Virus record (IMG/VR): IMGVR_UViG_3300046522_000170
Location: 1-34,007 of that record
From: a virus
Length of the DNA stretch: 34,007 bases
Strand: one strand, 5' to 3'
Of this stretch, positions 16,201-34,007 are shown piece by piece (within the stretch, counting starts at the first letter, position 1; each line of letters begins with the position of its first letter). The notes beneath the pieces are model-generated. The model searched no databases. It was not told the origin of the DNA and worked only from the letters and a program-made list of their open reading frames with translations. Position numbers and translations under genes: made by a program.

Positions 16201-16445
16201 CCCGCGCGGCACAGATCCGGAAGTGGCTGGCCGAGCACCGCGGCTGGCACTTCATGGGCGACATCTGCGAAGGCATGGGCGCCAGCGGCGGCTCTGCGAG
16301 GATTCTGGTATCCGCCGACGTTGGCCAGATGGCGCGCCGGGGGCTGATCCAGATGGTAGGCAGGCACGGCAGTAAGCGGTACGCCTTCGGGCGCGCGGCC
16401 CGGAAGTACACGACACAGAAACAGGGGGAGCCCCATGCAAGTTGA
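16197..16445 (+). CDS. Small winged-helix-like protein (82 aa, TTG start)
   Basis: TTG at 16197 overlaps the preceding stop (TTGA) and opens 82 codons: TRAAQIRKWLAEHRGWHFMG, then GSARILVSADVGQMARRGLI and a basic RHGSKRYAFGRAARKY tail. The pattern of helix, helix, MARRGLI and a strand pair looks like a winged-helix DNA-binding domain. It overlaps the Q-position gene by 11 bases. No family named. Confidence 0.65.
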   Translation: MTRAAQIRKWLAEHRGWHFMGDICEGMGASGGSARILVSADVGQMARRGLIQMVGRHGSKRYAFGRAARKYTTQKQGEPHAS

Positions 16446-16869
16446 CACCTTTGGCGCCTACGCGCGAGCGGAGCTGGAGCACTGGGGCAGGGAGTTCGCC
16501 CTCCACCGGGATTGCGAGTACTTGGGCCACCAGTCGAAGAACCTGCTGGCGGTCCTGATCGAGCACCAGGGAGAGATGCCCGGGCGAGTGCAGGGGTTCA
16601 AGCCGCTGGAGACGGACATCCGGGCTCAGCGGATCGAGGACATCGTGGCCAGCATCGCCCGCGACCAGGTGGGCCTGACGTGCGTGCTGCGCGCCTACTA
16701 CTGCGGCATGGGCCGGCGGAAGGTCGAGCGCTGGGAGACGGCGAACCTACTGCTGGCATACGTCGGGCAGAAGCCGGTGAGCCAGCGGCACTACCTCACG
16801 CTGCACGACATCGCGTTCTCCGAAGTGAAGGGTGCGCTGCGCGGTATTTCGATGGCGATCGCCGCGTGA
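16435..16869 (+). CDS. Q-position protein, candidate late antiterminator
   Basis: A 144-residue basic helical protein. The C-terminal half (TCVLRAYYCGMGRRKVERWE, then GQKPVSQRHYLTLHDIAFSE) looks like a sigma-region-4-type helix-turn-helix and resembles the antitermination/Q-like proteins of other phages. It is the last gene before a promoter-terminator pair that precedes the lysis genes, which is the exact site of Q in lambda and gene 23 in P22. I therefore infer late-gene antitermination; the sequence match alone would not prove it. Confidence 0.7.
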   Translation: MQVDTFGAYARAELEHWGREFALHRDCEYLGHQSKNLLAVLIEHQGEMPGRVQGFKPLETDIRAQRIEDIVASIARDQVGLTCVLRAYYCGMGRRKVERWETANLLLAYVGQKPVSQRHYLTLHDIAFSEVKGALRGISMAIAA

Positions 16870-16895: not shown

Positions 16896-16925
16896 TTGAC
16901 GAGGTGCGCACCTATAACTTACATT
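16896..16925 (+). promoter_or_regulatory. pR'-like late promoter
   Basis: TTGACG (16896-16901, five of six) and TACATT (16920-16925, four of six) are 18 bases apart. A perfect 12-bp palindrome AGGTGCGCACCT (16902-16913) fills the upstream half of the spacer and could be a regulator site. A terminator follows about 20 bases after the predicted start, as at lambda pR'-tR'. Confidence 0.55.
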
Positions 16926-16946
16926 TTCAGGCACTGTGACATAGAA

Positions 16947-16977
16947 GCCTCCGGACCTCCGGGGGCTTTTTCTTTTT
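16947..16977 (+). terminator. tR'-like terminator before the lysis genes
   Basis: Eight-bp GC-rich stem GCCTCCGG / CCGGGGGC, four-base loop, then TTTTTCTTTTT. It should stop transcripts from the late promoter unless the Q-position protein acts. The ribosome site of the endolysin follows directly after it. Confidence 0.88.
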
Positions 16978-16988
16978 CCGGAGTCCGA

Positions 16989-17435
16989 ATGTCCGCCCTC
17001 GCGCATGCCGTCTCACTGATAAAGCGGTGGGAGGGGTGCCGTCTGGAGGCGTACCCGGATCCGGCCACCGGTGGCGACCCCTGGACCATCGGCTGGGGCT
17101 CCACCGGCCCCGGCATCAAGAAGGGCGTCCGCTGGAGTCAGGCGCAGGCCGACGACCGGCTGGCCATCGATGTGGATCGCTTCATGAAGGGCGTCCGGTC
17201 CGTGCTGCGCAAGCCGGCCACCGACGCCCAGCTCGGCGCCATGACCAGCTTGGCCTACAACATCGGCGTCGGCGCGTTCAAGGATTCGACCCTGCTGCGC
17301 AAGTTCAACGCTGGCGACATCGCCGGCGCCGCGGCGGAGTTCCCGAAGTGGCGCCGCGCCAATGGCAAGGTCATGCAAGGCCTGGTCAACCGGCGCGCCG
17401 ACGAGCAGAAGGTCTTCCGTGAGGGGGCGGCATGA
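16989..17435 (+). CDS. Endolysin, GH24 (T4/P22-type) lysozyme
   Basis: A 148-residue muramidase that cleaves peptidoglycan at the end of infection. The GH24 triad is visible as Glu15 (RWEGC), Asp24 (YPDP) and Thr33 (WTIGWG). The later segments AQLGAMTSLAYNIGVGAFKD and FPKWRRANGKVMQGLVNRRA are typical. There is no signal peptide or signal-anchor segment, so it needs a holin to cross the inner membrane. The ATG at 16989 has CCGGAG upstream; reading frame further upstream runs through the terminator and is rejected. ATGA overlap with the next gene. Confidence 0.96.
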   Translation: MSALAHAVSLIKRWEGCRLEAYPDPATGGDPWTIGWGSTGPGIKKGVRWSQAQADDRLAIDVDRFMKGVRSVLRKPATDAQLGAMTSLAYNIGVGAFKDSTLLRKFNAGDIAGAAAEFPKWRRANGKVMQGLVNRRADEQKVFREGAA

Positions 17436-17728
17436 CGATGGAAGCCCAGTCGAGCCAGGACGGCCGCACCCGAATTTCCCTCGGCCCCGTAGAGCGCTGG
17501 ATCGTCACGATCTTGGCCGGCGCGCTGGTGGGGGGCGGCTACTGGCTGGTCACGTCCGTCCAGTCGATCCTCACCCAGCAGCAGGTGACCAACCAACAGC
17601 TGCAGACCATCAACGTCCAGATGGCTGACGTGCCGGCGCTGAAGATCGAGCTGGCAAAGCAGGCCGTGCAGGTCGAGCAGAACAAGCAGGACATTCGCGA
17701 GCTGAAGCAGCTCAGGGGGCTGAAATGA
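17432..17728 (+). CDS. Single-TM protein with coiled coil, lysis cassette
   Basis: A 98-residue protein: cytoplasmic start, one TM (WIVTILAGALVGGGYWLVT, about 23-41), then a long Gln-rich helix predicted to coil (IKIELAKQ-type region ending KQDIRELKQL). Its place between endolysin and a two-TM holin candidate suggests a holin, an antiholin or a holin-like membrane partner. It overlaps both neighbours by ATGA. The exact lysis role cannot be read from the sequence. Confidence 0.7.
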   Translation: MTMEAQSSQDGRTRISLGPVERWIVTILAGALVGGGYWLVTSVQSILTQQQVTNQQLQTINVQMADVPALKIELAKQAVQVEQNKQDIRELKQLRGLK

Positions 17729-18036
17729 AGGATCGATTCAACTGGCAGGGGCTGGCTGGCCGCGCAAGCACGCGCCTGGCTGTCCTCGCCGCGAGCGCCA
17801 CTGCGGCGCTGGGCGCCTACGCGCTGACCCCCGAGCGGGCGCAGCTGCTGGTCCCGGACTGGCTGATCGGCGGACTGGCCGGCATCGCGATCGTTTCCGC
17901 CGGGCTGATCCCGGTGGCCACCAGCTTCCGCCAGAAGGCGAAGGGGCCGGTGGCGCTGACCGAGGCGGACTCGCTGGCCGATCTGGCTGGCGTGCCGCGC
18001 CCCGATAACCCGGGCCGTGCCTGTGCTGATCCCTGA
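17725..18036 (+). CDS. Two-TM holin candidate
   Basis: A 103-residue membrane protein. TM1 is STRLAVLAASATAALGAYAL (about 15-34) and TM2 is LIGGLAGIAIVSAGLIPVAT (about 47-66). A basic cytoplasmic segment (SFRQKAKG) and a polar tail follow. Size, topology and place next to endolysin and spanins fit a class II holin that opens the membrane for the endolysin. Confidence 0.78.
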   Translation: MKDRFNWQGLAGRASTRLAVLAASATAALGAYALTPERAQLLVPDWLIGGLAGIAIVSAGLIPVATSFRQKAKGPVALTEADSLADLAGVPRPDNPGRACADP

Positions 18037-29919: not shown

Positions 29920-31356
29920 ATGGACAACTACCAGCAGAATTTCCTCAGCAGTCTGGCCGGCGGCTACCAGTTCGGCCAGCAGATCAAGAAGCAGCGCGAC
30001 AACAACCAGCTGAACCAGCTGGCGCAGACGGCGTACGCCGCGCCGCCAGAGCAGCAGCAGGCGCTGATCGGGCAGGCGATGGGTATCGATCGCACCGCAG
30101 GCGCAGCGCTGGAGAAGCAGGCGGCTACGTCGGAGGAGCAGCGCACCACCTCCATGGTCAACATGGCGAAAATGCTGATGTCAGTTCCTCCGGAGGCACG
30201 CCAGGGGCTTTACGACAATCGGATGCTCCCCGCTTTGCGCAGCCTTGGAGTTCAGGCTCCGCAATGGTCCCCGGAATCCGAGCCCATCATCATGAAGAGC
30301 GCTCAGGACATCTACTCTGCCTCCATGGGTGGTGGCCAGACGCCGACGGATGTCCGTTCGTTCCAGATGATGACGAAGGGCATGAGTCCGGAGGACATCG
30401 AACGAGCCCGTCGCATCAACCTTGGCCTGGACGGGCGCGCCTCCTCGTCTGGTTTTACCGCCGTCAAGTTCACCGGGCCGGATGGCCGCGAACGCGTCGG
30501 GTCCTTCAATGGCCGGACGGGCCAGATCGATCTGCCGGACGGCACCAGCTTCAACCCGCAGACCGGGGCGCTCTCGCAGACCGCAGGCATGCCGCAGGGG
30601 GCAGCTCAGCCCTCAGTGCAGGCCACCGTTTTCCGCGCCCCCAATGGCGAAGTGATCGATGTTTCCCAGATCACCGAGCCGGGGCTGCGCGAGTCGATCA
30701 TGCAGAACGCGGGTCAGTGGGGGCTGGTGCCGGATGGAGGCAGCGCACAACTACCGGCGCGCAACGTGTCGCCGGCGCAGGCAGGGGGCGGCATGTTTGT
30801 CGGCCGGGCCCCGGAAGAGCAGGCCGCTGCAACCGAGGCTGCGAAGCTCGGCGTGCAGGCTCAGTACCTGCCGCAGGAGCTGCAGGCCCGAACTCAGGCG
30901 GCCCTGGCCCAGAAGGCAGGTGAGGCGCAGGTTTCTGCGCAGGCAGATCAGGCGACGAGGGACCGGTCCAACTCCTCTGCATCGCAGGTCTACGAGACGG
31001 GCATGTCCGGTGTTTACGAGGGCATGCGGGGAACCGATACCGGCCCCATCGCCGGGCGACTGCCGGCTGTGACTACCGGGCAGCAGATCGCTCAAGGTGC
31101 AACGGCGGCGATGGCTCCCGTGCTGAAGCAGATGTTCAGGACGGCCGGCGAGGGCACCTTTACCGACAAGGACCAGGACCTGCTCATGCAGATGGTCCCG
31201 ACGCGCACCGACACGCCAGCTGCGCGCGAGGCAAAAATGGCGAACGTGGACAACATCGTGCGCGCGAAACTGGGCATGCCCCCGCCCAAGAAGGCGGTGA
31301 ACCCGCAGACCGGTGAAACCCTCTACCTCCGCTTCGGCCAGTGGGTGAAGAAATAA
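29920..31356 (+). CDS. Ejection-type virion protein 2
   Basis: A 478-residue soluble, Gln/Ala-rich protein: coiled N-terminus (FGQQIKKQRDNNQLNQLAQT), a small beta-domain (TAVKFTGPDGRERVGSFNGR) and a helical C-terminus that ends LYLRFGQWVKK. Position and composition suit P22 gp20 or gp16. ATG 29920 follows the previous stop by three bases; a TAATG overlap joins it to the next gene. Confidence 0.75.
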   Translation: MDNYQQNFLSSLAGGYQFGQQIKKQRDNNQLNQLAQTAYAAPPEQQQALIGQAMGIDRTAGAALEKQAATSEEQRTTSMVNMAKMLMSVPPEARQGLYDNRMLPALRSLGVQAPQWSPESEPIIMKSAQDIYSASMGGGQTPTDVRSFQMMTKGMSPEDIERARRINLGLDGRASSSGFTAVKFTGPDGRERVGSFNGRTGQIDLPDGTSFNPQTGALSQTAGMPQGAAQPSVQATVFRAPNGEVIDVSQITEPGLRESIMQNAGQWGLVPDGGSAQLPARNVSPAQAGGGMFVGRAPEEQAAATEAAKLGVQAQYLPQELQARTQAALAQKAGEAQVSAQADQATRDRSNSSASQVYETGMSGVYEGMRGTDTGPIAGRLPAVTTGQQIAQGATAAMAPVLKQMFRTAGEGTFTDKDQDLLMQMVPTRTDTPAAREAKMANVDNIVRAKLGMPPPKKAVNPQTGETLYLRFGQWVKK

Positions 31357-33041
31357 TGGCTACCCCTCCGCTTCCTCCCGGCTTCCAGCTGGAAGACGCC
31401 GGCCAGAATGACCAGCAGGCGAGTTCGGCCGTGCCCGCACTCCCGCCAGGGTTCGTCCTTGAAGGTGCTCAGGCCGATGCGGCTCCGCCGCAGTCTGCCT
31501 ATTCGCAGCCCGTCAGAACCCCGGAGGCGAGTTCGCTCTTCGGTAGGCTGATTAACCTGGCTTCCGGGCCTGCGCCGCTGCAGGGAAGCACGCCGGAGGA
31601 GCGGCGCGCAGATTACGAGAGCCGCCCCGCGTTGGTTCGCGCCGCTACCGGTGTCGGTCAGTTCGTGGACAGCAACATCCAGGGCATCTCGCAGCTGACC
31701 GGCACGCAGACGCCGGGGATGGCCGACAAGGGCGCGTTTACAGGTGGCGTGGCTGACAGCGATCTCGTCACTGGGGCCGCGCGCATCGGATCCGAGCTGG
31801 GTGCGTGGGCGCTGCCCTTCTCCAAGGTCGCAAAAATCCCATCGATTGCTGGCCGGATTGCAGCAAGTGGCGCGCTCGGAGCCGGTTCGAGCGGGATTCG
31901 AGAGGCGGACTCGACTGAAGGCCGGCTCGGCAATATTGCAGCCGGAGCGCTAGGTGGTGGGTTGGGCGAGGCGGGCGGCAGCGCGCTCCGGGCCTTGGGC
32001 GCCAGAGCCACTCCAGCGATGACCGCGCTCTACAACGACGCCAAGAAGTTCGGGATTCAGCTGACGCCGGCGCAGCTATCGAACAGCCAGTTCGTGAAAC
32101 GCGCGCAAAACATCCTCTCGAACCTCCCGTTCTCTGGTGCCACGCGCACCTGGGAAAATCAGGTCGATCAGTTCAATCGCGCCGTTTCTCGCGAGTTCGG
32201 CGAGGATGCCCCCAAGATTACGCCCGAGGTGTTCGCCAGTGCCAAGTCTCGGATCGGTGCGGAGTTTGACGAGCTTTCGGGCAAGAGCACCTTGACGATC
32301 GGCGATGCGCTTTTGGACCGTCTGGGGTCTATCCAGAAGGATGCGCAGGAAATCGCAGACGATGGTGTGATTCGGGCTGTCGGTGGAGTTATCGACCGCA
32401 TGTTTCGGCAGTCGAAAGACGGGCAGCTCCCGGGGGCTGCCTATAAGTCGCTCGACAGCCAGCTCGGCAAGATCATGAAGGCCGGCGGCGAGAAGGCCCA
32501 CTACATCGGCGAGGTGCGTGACGCCATTCGTGAAGCGATGGACGAATCTATCGACCCGGCGATGCGCCAAGCATGGCAGCAGGCAAGGTCGCAGTATCGG
32601 GCGCTCAAGACCGTGGAGCCGTTGGTCGCCAAGAGTGCAGACGGATCGCTCTCGCCGGCGCAGCTCATGGGCCGTGTTACTGCAAACAATGCCGGCAAGT
32701 CAGCAATGGCGTCCGGACGAGGCGGCAATCTTGGCGAGCTCGCCAGAGTTGGCCAGGCTATGAAGTCGCCGACCAGCTCGGGCACCGTGGAAAACATGCT
32801 CGCCGCTCAATCGCTCAACCCGCTTGCATGGCCGCTGATTCTGGCGCGGGGCGCCGTAGGCGCTACTGCGGGGCGCGCCGGCAACAGCAACGCGCTTGCC
32901 AGGCTGATGGCCGACCCCGGGAGCCGTATCCCGGTGGCCAACATGCTTTCAAGGCTGATGGGGCCCAGCGGAGCTCTCTCCGCTCCCGCTGTCGCCGCTC
33001 CGGTCGTGGGTGATGAGCCGCGGAGGAACAACGGCCGCTGA
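31356..33041 (+). CDS. Ejection-type virion protein 3 (P22 gp16-like position)
   Basis: A 561-residue protein. It starts with two PPLPPGF/ALPPGFVLE repeats. A Gly/Ala-rich, membrane-seeking stretch follows (SIAGRIAASGALGAGSSGIR ... NIAAGALGGGLGEAGGSALR, about 165-220), then a long helical region (FDELSGKSTLTIGDALLDRL). The C-terminus is again Ala/Gly-rich (WPLILARGAVGATAGRAGNS). It probably forms part of the channel through which DNA enters the cell. Last gene before the P22 immI-like gap. The minus-strand gene overlaps its 3' end. Confidence 0.78.
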   Translation: MATPPLPPGFQLEDAGQNDQQASSAVPALPPGFVLEGAQADAAPPQSAYSQPVRTPEASSLFGRLINLASGPAPLQGSTPEERRADYESRPALVRAATGVGQFVDSNIQGISQLTGTQTPGMADKGAFTGGVADSDLVTGAARIGSELGAWALPFSKVAKIPSIAGRIAASGALGAGSSGIREADSTEGRLGNIAAGALGGGLGEAGGSALRALGARATPAMTALYNDAKKFGIQLTPAQLSNSQFVKRAQNILSNLPFSGATRTWENQVDQFNRAVSREFGEDAPKITPEVFASAKSRIGAEFDELSGKSTLTIGDALLDRLGSIQKDAQEIADDGVIRAVGGVIDRMFRQSKDGQLPGAAYKSLDSQLGKIMKAGGEKAHYIGEVRDAIREAMDESIDPAMRQAWQQARSQYRALKTVEPLVAKSADGSLSPAQLMGRVTANNAGKSAMASGRGGNLGELARVGQAMKSPTSSGTVENMLAAQSLNPLAWPLILARGAVGATAGRAGNSNALARLMADPGSRIPVANMLSRLMGPSGALSAPAVAAPVVGDEPRRNNGR

Positions 33042-33230
33042 CGTGTAGTACGGGCCAAGTTTGGCGGCTTTCCGAGCCGCTCGGGCCTCCTTCTTCAGCC
33101 GCGCCTTTTCATCTCGGCGCTCGTCGAATCGCTCGACAGCATCCCAGAACTGGCCGATTTTTTTGACTATCCAGGGGCTGAGCGCCGCAATGAACGCGAC
33201 GACAAAAAGTTGCTCCCAGTTGATGCTCAT
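32949..33230 (-). CDS. Minus-strand small membrane protein (93 aa)
   Basis: A 93-residue protein: an N-terminal membrane segment (LFVVAFIAALSPWIVKKIG, about 8-26), a highly charged helix (DAVERFDERRDEKARLKKEA) and a Pro/Ser tail that runs antisense over the end of the ejection gene. It lies where P22 has the minus-strand sieA/immI genes. There is no strong ribosome site before ATG 33230, and the last 30 codons overlap coding DNA, so the gene is probable rather than certain. Confidence 0.5.
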   Translation of the reverse strand: MSINWEQLFVVAFIAALSPWIVKKIGQFWDAVERFDERRDEKARLKKEARAARKAAKLGPYYTSAAVVPPRLITHDRSGDSGSGESSAGPHQP

Positions 33231-33385
33231 GGCCGGCGGCCCAGGTCGTCAGATGCCCGAATCCTACCACCGAACCCAGCCAGCCAATTCCGGAACCTAT
33301 TAGAAGGGGCCTGGCGATTCGGTACACAGACAGCAGAAAGTCGGGAAACCGACCGGCTGCCAGCTACACCATCCCCGGGGAGGGT

Positions 33386-33419
33386 TCAACGGAGGAGTTC
33401 CGTCACAGGCCTCCGTTGA
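33386..33419. repeat. Perfect 10-bp inverted repeat overlapping the moron -35 box
   Basis: TCAACGGAGG (33386-33395) and CCTCCGTTGA (33410-33419) are perfectly complementary with 14 bases between. The right arm runs into the TTGACG -35 box. This is a good candidate operator. Bases 33231-33385 hold no gene or further motif that I can see. Confidence 0.55.
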
Positions 33420-33443
33420 CGGTCCCGGCAGATGGCGTGTAAT
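33416..33443 (+). promoter_or_regulatory. Independent promoter of the 51-aa gene unit
   Basis: TTGACG (33416-33421, five of six) and TGTAAT (33438-33443, five of six) are 16 bases apart. The predicted start near 33450 gives a ~70-base leader with a hairpin, then the 51-aa gene. A promoter of this quality inside a late operon marks a separately expressed unit, probably active in the lysogen. Confidence 0.65.
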
Positions 33444-33455
33444 GCCCCAAAAGGC

Positions 33456-33488
33456 GAAGGGCCACCAGTTCGCACCTGGTAGCCCTTC
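33456..33488 (+). repeat. Thirteen-bp hairpin in the leader of the 51-aa gene
   Basis: GAAGGGCCACCAG and CTGGTAGCCCTTC pair over 13 positions with one mismatch around the loop TTCGCAC. It begins about six bases after the predicted transcript start and has no T run, so it is a leader hairpin (mRNA stability or regulation) and not a simple terminator. Confidence 0.55.
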
Positions 33489-33520
33489 AATGATCCACAC
33501 GTGTCGTACCACGGAGGACT

Positions 33521-33676
33521 ATGAACAATCGTACACCCAAAACGCACCTTGGAGTTAAAGGGGCCATGAGCGAAGAAGGCGCAGACCGGGCCGGCAACAA
33601 GCTGGCCCACGCGGCAGTGATTCTGGCCTACGGGCTGGCGATCGCCGCCGTCATCGCGGCTATCAAATGGTGGTAG
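33521..33676 (+). CDS. Small single-TM protein (51 aa), moron candidate
   Basis: ATG 33521 follows GGAGGACT. The 51 residues have a polar, basic start (MNNRTPKTHLGVKGAMSEEG) and one membrane segment (HAAVILAYGLAIAAVIAAIK) that ends in WW, so the N-terminus is in the cytoplasm or periplasm and the C-terminus just past the membrane. An internal ATG at 33566 is possible. It has its own promoter and terminator and lies between virion genes, the definition of a phage moron; envelope or superinfection effects are plausible, but there is no direct evidence. Confidence 0.7.
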   Translation: MNNRTPKTHLGVKGAMSEEGADRAGNKLAHAAVILAYGLAIAAVIAAIKWW

Positions 33677-33706
33677 CCGCCACCCGAACAACCCGAACCC
33701 ATAAGG

Positions 33707-33730
33707 CCCGCCTCGAGCGGGTTTCTTTTT
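33707..33730 (+). terminator. Terminator before the tail fibre gene
   Basis: Stem CCCGC / GCGGG around CTCGA, then TTTCTTTTT. It closes the 51-aa unit, 14 bases before the tail fibre ATG, and would also reduce read-through from the ejection genes. Confidence 0.85.
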
Positions 33731-33743
33731 GCCCGGAGATCCC

Positions 33744-34007
33744 ATGACCGCCTTCCGCTTCTACAACCCGGCCCCCGTGTTCTTCGACCTGCTCGGGCTG
33801 AAGCCGTGCGCCGGCGGGAGCCTGACGTTCTACGACAAGGGCACCACCACGCCGAAGATGACGTGGAGCGACCAGGGCATGACCATCCCGAACACCAATC
33901 CGGTGGCTCTGGACAGCGCTGGCCGGTCGAACACGAACATCTGGCTCGACGGCGGTTACACGGTGGTGCTGAAGGATTCGGCGAACGTCGTGATCTTCAC
34001 GCGCGAC
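33744..34007 (+). CDS. Tail fibre/tailspike, N-terminal part (cut by window edge)
   Basis: 88 codons are visible. FYNPAPVFFDLLGLKPCAGG, SLTFYDKGTTTPKMTWSDQG and NPVALDSAGRSNTNIWLDGG, then YTVVLKDSANVVIFTRD, are the typical N-terminal head/tail-binding domain of tailspikes and fibres (pattern GGxLxFYxxGTTTP...NPVxLDxxGR). It should attach the receptor-binding protein to the gp4/gp10-type tail. CCCGGAG precedes the ATG. The receptor-binding part is outside the window. Confidence 0.85.
   Translation, partial: MTAFRFYNPAPVFFDLLGLKPCAGGSLTFYDKGTTTPKMTWSDQGMTIPNTNPVALDSAGRSNTNIWLDGGYTVVLKDSANVVIFTRD

Follow-up and report, generated by a model that had tools for sequence, protein, structure and literature searches.

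The immI region of phage P22 carries arc, ant, mnt and sieA. In restriction-modification systems, the controller (C) proteins act as dimers that bind dyads near the -35 position. In Lactococcus, phage-triggered suicide cassettes have been engineered in which a phage promoter drives a lethal restriction gene. Small membrane proteins with a dual start are typical of holins and exclusion proteins. In the helper-satellite pair P2 and P4, P2 Ogr and P4 delta each promote late-gene expression of both P2 and P4 (PMC8628076). Finally, gp15 of HK97 is a superinfection-exclusion moron according to the title of Cumby et al. 2012, as cited in PMC11436027.

The locus described here lies in an IMG/VR record of a virus, 34,007 bases long, the whole of which was analysed and is called the window hereafter. 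By PHROG profiles the window encodes P22-type portal, needle/head-closure and ejection proteins, and with these genes of its own it differs from capsid-less satellites of the P4 type. Its ejection protein was searched in 61 Stenotrophomonas-group genomes, which gave one distant match (34% identity).

The slot and its 51-aa gene

The interval between the last ejection gene and the tail-fibre gene had been described in the first-pass annotation as a self-contained moron unit at the P22 immI position, whose strong promoter near 33450 would be active in the lysogen. ORF coordinates bear out the slot, and the perfect inverted repeat, the ribosome site, the terminator and a divergent small membrane protein with a hydrophobic N-terminus were all recovered (Table 1). 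The leader hairpin, given as 13 bp, does exist and has 12 pairs with one bulge. When the slot was compared across relatives, the 51-aa frame was kept and the divergent small genes were variable. A moron, or cargo, unit at an immI-like position is therefore upheld by the conserved frame, its own terminator and these variable neighbours; it is an extra gene among late genes, at differing positions in related phages. The claim that none of the proteins is recognisable fails for the 51-aa product, which belongs to PHROG_12997, and holds for P22-type homologues, as neither the 51-aa nor the 93-aa protein gave a Pfam, PADLOC or PHROG match to Arc, Ant, Mnt or SieA.

Table 1. Coordinates of the slot features in the window, followed by those of the predicted activator and its sites in phage YeP5
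Feature	Position	Strand	Basis or remark
Slot	flanked by last ejection gene 31341-33041 and tail-fibre-like gene from about 33753		
93-aa divergent small membrane protein	32949-33230	-	ORF; overlaps the 3' end of the ejection gene
Leftward extended -10 (TGGTAGGAT) of the divergent cargo gene	33261-33269	-	conserved in relatives
AGTCGGGAAACCGAC, dyad TCGGGAnnCCGA, putative epsilon15-like late-activator site	33339-33353	+	exact core match
CACCAT, weak -10 (xAxxxT)	33367-33372	+	conserved spacing; start predicted near 33379
Perfect 10-bp inverted repeat, TCAACGGAGG / CCTCCGTTGA	33386-33419 (arms 33386-33395 and 33410-33419)	+	sequence
TTGACG-16-TGTAAT, weak candidate second promoter	33416-33443	+	sequence only
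Leader hairpin GAAGGGCCACCAG...CTGGTAGCCCTTC	33456-33488	+	kept in L002, L003, L004
Ribosome binding site GGAGG	33513-33517	+	sequence, Shine-Dalgarno comparison
51-aa single-membrane-span protein	33521-33676	+	PHROG_12997; hydrophobic segment residues 30-48
Predicted short form, 36 aa, from internal ATG (M16)	33566-33676	+	start-codon comparison
Intrinsic-terminator-like hairpin with T-rich tail	33704-33731	+	terminator scan
YeP5 (L227): predicted late activator	17540-17776		sites at 1939, 17979, 21373, 21485, 33046

The 51-aa frame proved to be a genuine gene, as had been proposed. Its product matches PHROG_12997, a family annotated without function, at 2e-14 (residues 1-47 of 51 against profile positions 1-47 of 52). 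Iterated searches brought together relatives from 52 IMG/VR loci, in phages of several bacterial groups, and others from Stenotrophomonas-like, Rodentibacter and Acinetobacter genomes and from Pasteurella phage Pmp14. These relatives, which match the profile too, show 43-90% identity across all or most of the length and share the core N(Y/H)TPKxxLKVxGxMSEKGADRAG, followed by a single hydrophobic segment, whose mean KD value is 2.29 in the window protein. Pfam, NCBIfam and PADLOC models gave no match to the 51-aa protein. With this protein as tblastn query no named phage was retrieved, the Pmp14 copy being detected with a relative as query.

Among 19 compared sequences, the first start codon is ATG, GTG or TTG, and an internal methionine at codon 15 or 16 is encoded by ATG in all 19. 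A Shine-Dalgarno-like AAGG, AGGTG or GGAG precedes this internal ATG. Moreover, some relatives exist in the short form only (L031-L033, L035, L062), a part of them behind another small membrane-protein frame. Because of the invariant internal start with its ribosome site, the variable first start and the short-form-only relatives, the gene likely has two products of 51 and 36 aa. In L031-L033 and L062 the short-form gene stands in tandem after the other frame, which in L031 has a similar N-terminal motif and a possible second start of its own. Of the traits of holins, a dual start and one membrane span are likely for the 51-aa protein; the locus lies outside the lysis cassette (lysozyme gene 16896-17435), and one relative adjoins an endolysin gene.

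The PHROG_12997 unit was found at at least nine kinds of late-gene position. The gene 3' of it may encode a portal (in Pmp14), a head scaffold, another virion structural protein, a tape measure, a head decoration protein, a minor tail protein, an endolysin, a J tail protein or a tail fibre. The part common to these insertions starts at a G+C-rich hairpin some 30-60 nt 5' of the start codon, and the sequence further upstream differs from one insertion to the next. Judging from this distribution, the unit is a movable late-operon cassette. In the window, folding of 33450-33520 gave a z score of -2.85, and the leader hairpin of the window group has no T run. Equivalent leader hairpins of Pseudomonas-like, Acinetobacter and Pasteurellaceae phages, at the same place, are terminator-like (AAAACCCC..GGGGTTTT). 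Relatives also have terminators comparable to that of the window 3' of the ORF.

The leftward half of the slot shows a common start and different contents. TGGTAGGATTCGGGC is shared by the window, L002, L003 and L004 and has the counterpart TGGTAGGATTCGGCG in G018, with different small genes behind; L034 has no such leftward extended -10 and carries in its slot a 97-aa lipoprotein-like frame. Leftward genes of the relatives are unrelated to the 93-aa gene of the window and include the MTWLYAIGLK family of 50-52 aa in L002 and L004 and a family of 62-63 aa in L003 and G018. The 93-aa protein of the window reaches a KD19 maximum of 1.75 and gave no Pfam, no PADLOC and no significant PHROG match. 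Leftward slot genes mostly encode membrane proteins, and this half is a variable cargo slot beside the ejection gene. The leftward gene is more likely than the 51-aa gene to be the lysogenic-conversion gene of the locus.

Candidate promoters and their podophage relatives

The strong promoter that had been proposed, TTGACG-16-TGTAAT with the inverted repeat as operator, would make the locus a lysogenic-conversion unit transcribed from near 33450. Its -35, -10 and inverted repeat are indeed present and kept in L002 (as TTGACC-16-TGTAAT). Nevertheless, the -10 lacks the near-obligatory A at position 2, a promoter scan reported none in 32000-34007, and L003, L004 and L034 keep the gene and not the promoter, which recurs in the nearest relative L002 only. 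As a promoter it is weak and poorly conserved, and lysogenic expression of the 51-aa gene from it is very unlikely. The 51-aa protein may still act in exclusion or lysogenic conversion. The inverted repeat folds at -17.9 kcal/mol and is retained in L002, where one G-C pair has become G-U. Rather than serving the downstream promoter as an operator, it most likely forms a hairpin close to the 5' end of the leader RNA.

An element further upstream, at 33339-33372, had been overlooked. It consists of AGTCGGGAAACCGAC, 13 bp and CACCAT, and matches exactly the AGTCGGGAnnCCGAC core of the epsilon15-like late promoter. The full promoter pattern has one match in the 34 kb of the window, where 9e-5 are expected by chance. 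The flank of the site is only partly kept (AGAA versus the usual AAAT), and the AAGTCGGG variant also occurs in natural late promoters of G701, G759, G762, G764, G765 and G768. A scan of viral contigs for ATAGTCGGGAAACCGAC gave at least 120 IMG/VR stretches. In a logo of 31 non-redundant copies only AAATAGTCGGGAAACCGAC and a hexamer are conserved, with 13-14 variable bases between them, and within the hexamer 30 of 31 copies have A at position 2 and 30 of 31 have T at position 6. In the same way, across 17 scanned records the site and the hexamer were found in nearly all strong matches and in every multi-copy one. Taken from this alignment, the element is in its form an activator-dependent promoter, with a weak -10 and a dyad whose centre lies near -32, and its identity in the window as a late promoter of the epsilon15-like type is well supported by sequence comparison.

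The -10 hexamer and its spacing are identical in the close relative L002/G001, and G018, a contig that stops just after the promoter and does not cover the cargo gene, has GACCAT. (A)AGTCGGGAAACCGAC is present in the slot of the window, L002 and G018 and in the lambda-like G007, G008, G009 and G024. Between single-copy relatives the 15-bp site is 93-100% identical and the adjoining 36 bp upstream about 22-64%; because the site was kept while its flanks diverged, it is under selection. Three matches were counted in 668 host genomes, about the chance expectation, which places the motif outside any host regulon; a host-encoded regulator was rejected on this count.

AGTCGGGAAACCGAC can also be drawn as a perfect hairpin of the GNRA type (GTCGG-GAAA-CCGAC), and it is strand-specific, so that it could work as RNA, in a leader element or sRNA, or else as another kind of DNA site. 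The stem is, however, conserved in sequence without covariation, the changes falling in the loop; A and T of the -10 stand at a fixed spacing across unconserved bases; some copies upstream of late genes are embedded in coding sequence; and Rfam gave no matching family. A structured RNA was dropped for these reasons, the fixed -10 having pointed to a promoter, and we hold such a function to be highly improbable.

Genomes of about 35-38 kb carry the promoter pattern in 2-5 copies on one strand, ahead of genes for coat, tail, ejection and lysis. The portal of these phages has relatives in Yersinia phages YeP4-6 and in Alcaligenes phage Piluca, whose record notes several relatives of epsilon15 gp15-gp17. 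Owing to this portal kinship, the multi-copy phages are taken to be temperate epsilon15-like podophages. Their first late promoter has a small HTH gene (phrog_16553) close upstream, placed at 1113-1370 in L107. In L104 and L107 a strong terminator-like hairpin was observed after the first late promoter and ahead of the first late gene, which recalls Q-type antitermination; lambda-like cargo units show the same order of promoter, terminator and gene.

An HTH gene of the phrog_16553 type was found in all 26 multi-copy records (G012-G017, G020-G022, G700-G705, G759, G761, G762, G764, G765, G768-G770, G775, G777 and G778). Of 26 single-copy records, none gave a strong match of this type; 18 of these records span 30-83 kb, and absence says little in the short records G693, G697 and G698. 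The window is among the sequences without this gene according to HTH profile searches, and G755 and G760 gave a weak generic HTH match only (1e-5), inside a 304-aa frame. The single-copy list leaves out G699 and G758 as short epsilon15-like fragments, G756 as off-consensus and G019 for want of a -10; it includes G772, about the same phage as G018, and G694, whose opposite strand bears an additional imperfect match. For the co-occurrence, a nominal Fisher p of 8e-15 was obtained with 24 single-copy records; it ignores phage relatedness and is not a true probability, since the records are related.

Yersinia phage YeP5, an isolate, has an HTH homologue with 46% identity. Five variant sites (for example AGTCGGGAAACCGAA and GGTCAGGATTCCGAC) lie on one strand of its genome, each with xAxxxT at the same spacing, and precede the lysis gene, the first late gene right after the HTH gene, the coat gene (two sites) and one more gene. 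An AlphaFold model of the HTH protein has a pLDDT of 86.5, and its nearest PDB folds are of the Xre type, including C proteins, with E values of 0.03-0.1 that indicate fold type only. A lambda CII-like activator, suggested by a likeness seen by eye, was set aside after Pfam and PDB searches gave weak generic HTH matches and the fold search gave Xre and C-protein types. A short literature search returned no description of an epsilon15-like late activator or its late promoters, and nothing relevant on the motif or on prophage genes under a foreign late promoter.

Single copies ahead of cargo genes

With one site in 34 kb, the window differs from the multi-copy genomes, and its promoter is therefore a copy in a different phage rather than part of the epsilon15-like regulon. 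At least four different small genes were seen behind single copies. The cargo is the PHROG_12997 cassette in the window, G001, G007, G008 and G009; a 47-aa membrane protein of phrog_6632 in G024, at the same gpI-J slot; another 47-aa protein in L089; and, in about 17 siphophage loci such as one close to the right end of G023, a basic protein of 61 aa. In G007, G008, G009 and G024 the promoter is separated from the ORF by a terminator. The 61-aa family (MRAFAQAIIAIAPV.SRKSRNRFLRECDRWTNRL..) was observed directly behind the promoter in L074, L078, L103, L125, L130, L145, L162, L174, L231, L235, L242, L244 and L245, with a hairpin around the ribosome site and no PHROG match. L102 (G025) has a single-copy late promoter on the minus strand around 3209, with CACCTT as -10, ahead of a possible small membrane-protein frame (MAEALWNLVAALAVAVAPIILTEYFRRRRC..) that has no clear ribosome site.

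These arrangements suggest that the 51-aa cargo gene stands behind a copy of the epsilon15-like late promoter and would be switched on in trans by the activator of a competitor, a reading to which we give about even chances. Having no good -35, the promoter would give no transcript as long as the lysogen is quiet. Upon infection of the cell by an epsilon15-like phage, or induction of a resident one, the small HTH late activator would be made, bind the dyad around -32 and recruit RNA polymerase to the weak -10. The 51-aa membrane protein would then be produced during the late phase of the competitor and disturb the membrane or block further entry, so that the competitor pays. We infer that the podophage HTH protein activates the site, that it would act in trans on the window copy, and that harm to the competitor would be the outcome. 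The weakest step is the effect of the protein itself: membrane disturbance is favoured, given the dual start, the single span and the holin-like form, and also because the trigger would come late, when a block to entry would no longer stop the genome concerned and its benefit would be questionable.

The window phage could alternatively encode an activator of its own, unrelated in sequence, that serves the cargo gene alone, and single-copy phages in general may hold an unrelated activator of the same specificity. Activators can diverge past detection, and the window record may be a fragment. HTH profiles nevertheless gave no strong match, either in the window or in 17 further single-copy records of at least 30 kb, and the window's own late genes do not use the site, as there is just one. 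A 144-aa gene at 16435-16869 was seen right before the lysozyme gene, is 85-88% identical in G002, G003 and G018, and is a candidate late regulator of the window phage itself; G002 and G003 are both without the site, which argues against this gene as its activator. Control encoded in cis by the window phage is distinctly unlikely.

A trigger from a competitor does not account for the whole family. Most 51-aa relatives (those of Acinetobacter and Pasteurellaceae phages, L003, L004 and L034) lie inside late operons and do not have the epsilon15-like promoter, and therefore the gene must also work under other control. No promoter of the AGTCGGG type was found in the Acinetobacter or Pasteurellaceae cassettes, where the unit begins at the leader hairpin. 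In phages without this promoter the gene presumably follows their own late transcription, so that its product would not be strongly harmful to its owner or would be held down by the leader hairpin or terminator. These relatives, standing in sense orientation at many positions of late operons and mostly without the site, speak for an ordinary late-operon moron, as does the small dual-start form of the protein. The 51-aa protein would then serve exclusion or lysis timing, in the phage's own late phase or at a low level in the lysogen, and the AGTCGGG site would be a relic of mosaic exchange with epsilon15-like phages. A relic is at odds with the seven P22-like and lambda-like carriers that keep both site and -10 amid diverged flanks, a sign of selection; moreover, no epsilon15-like genes lie beside the site, and siphophage single copies precede unrelated cargo genes. 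This explanation by an ordinary moron is considered unlikely.

Going back to activation by a competitor, it is proposed more tentatively, at somewhat less than even confidence, that unrelated prophages have copied the late promoter of a rival in front of interchangeable effectors, which would be made only in its late phase, as a natural tripwire. The cargo gene of the window would possibly be an abortive or exclusion tripwire of this kind. If true, intact prophages listen in on the late-gene activator of a rival and answer with small membrane or basic proteins. Such a transcriptional anti-phage trigger would differ from defences that sense proteins and from exclusion genes that are expressed constitutively. 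The orphan families PHROG_12997, phrog_6632 and the 61-aa family would also gain a condition under which they can be tested. In addition, the reading predicts a late activator and late promoters for epsilon15-like phages.

Comparison with described systems

The locus resembles P22 immI in its position between ejection and tail genes and in its divergent transcription; it differs in a slot without recognised homologues of the immI proteins and in its regulation. Morons such as HK97 gp15 and the window gene alike are small membrane-protein genes inserted among late genes with a terminator of their own, and the window protein is set apart by its assignment to the family PHROG_12997, its probable dual start and its late promoter of a foreign type.

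The pair P2/P4 offers a parallel, in that the late activator made by one phage turns on genes of another element in the same cell. Unlike the P4 satellite, the carrier in the window is apparently a complete phage that brings head and tail genes of its own; a single promoter stands ahead of a single small cargo gene, and the carrier has no homologue of the activator. The arrangement in the podophages, with several activator-dependent late promoters on one strand and the activator gene just upstream of the first, recalls Mu-like phages with C/Mor (PF08765). Such phages were rejected as the source, as PF08765 was found in 0 of 20 records and the virion genes are epsilon15-like; the podophage regulator is an unrelated HTH. 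C proteins such as C.BclI and C.Esp1396I are likewise small Xre-fold activators and the best structural neighbours of the podophage HTH protein, which differs from them in having no sequence family match and in being a phage-encoded putative late activator. Finally, the Lactococcus cassettes share with the window a cargo gene under the promoter of an invading phage. They are laboratory constructs, and the system of the window would be a natural, repeatedly evolved version.
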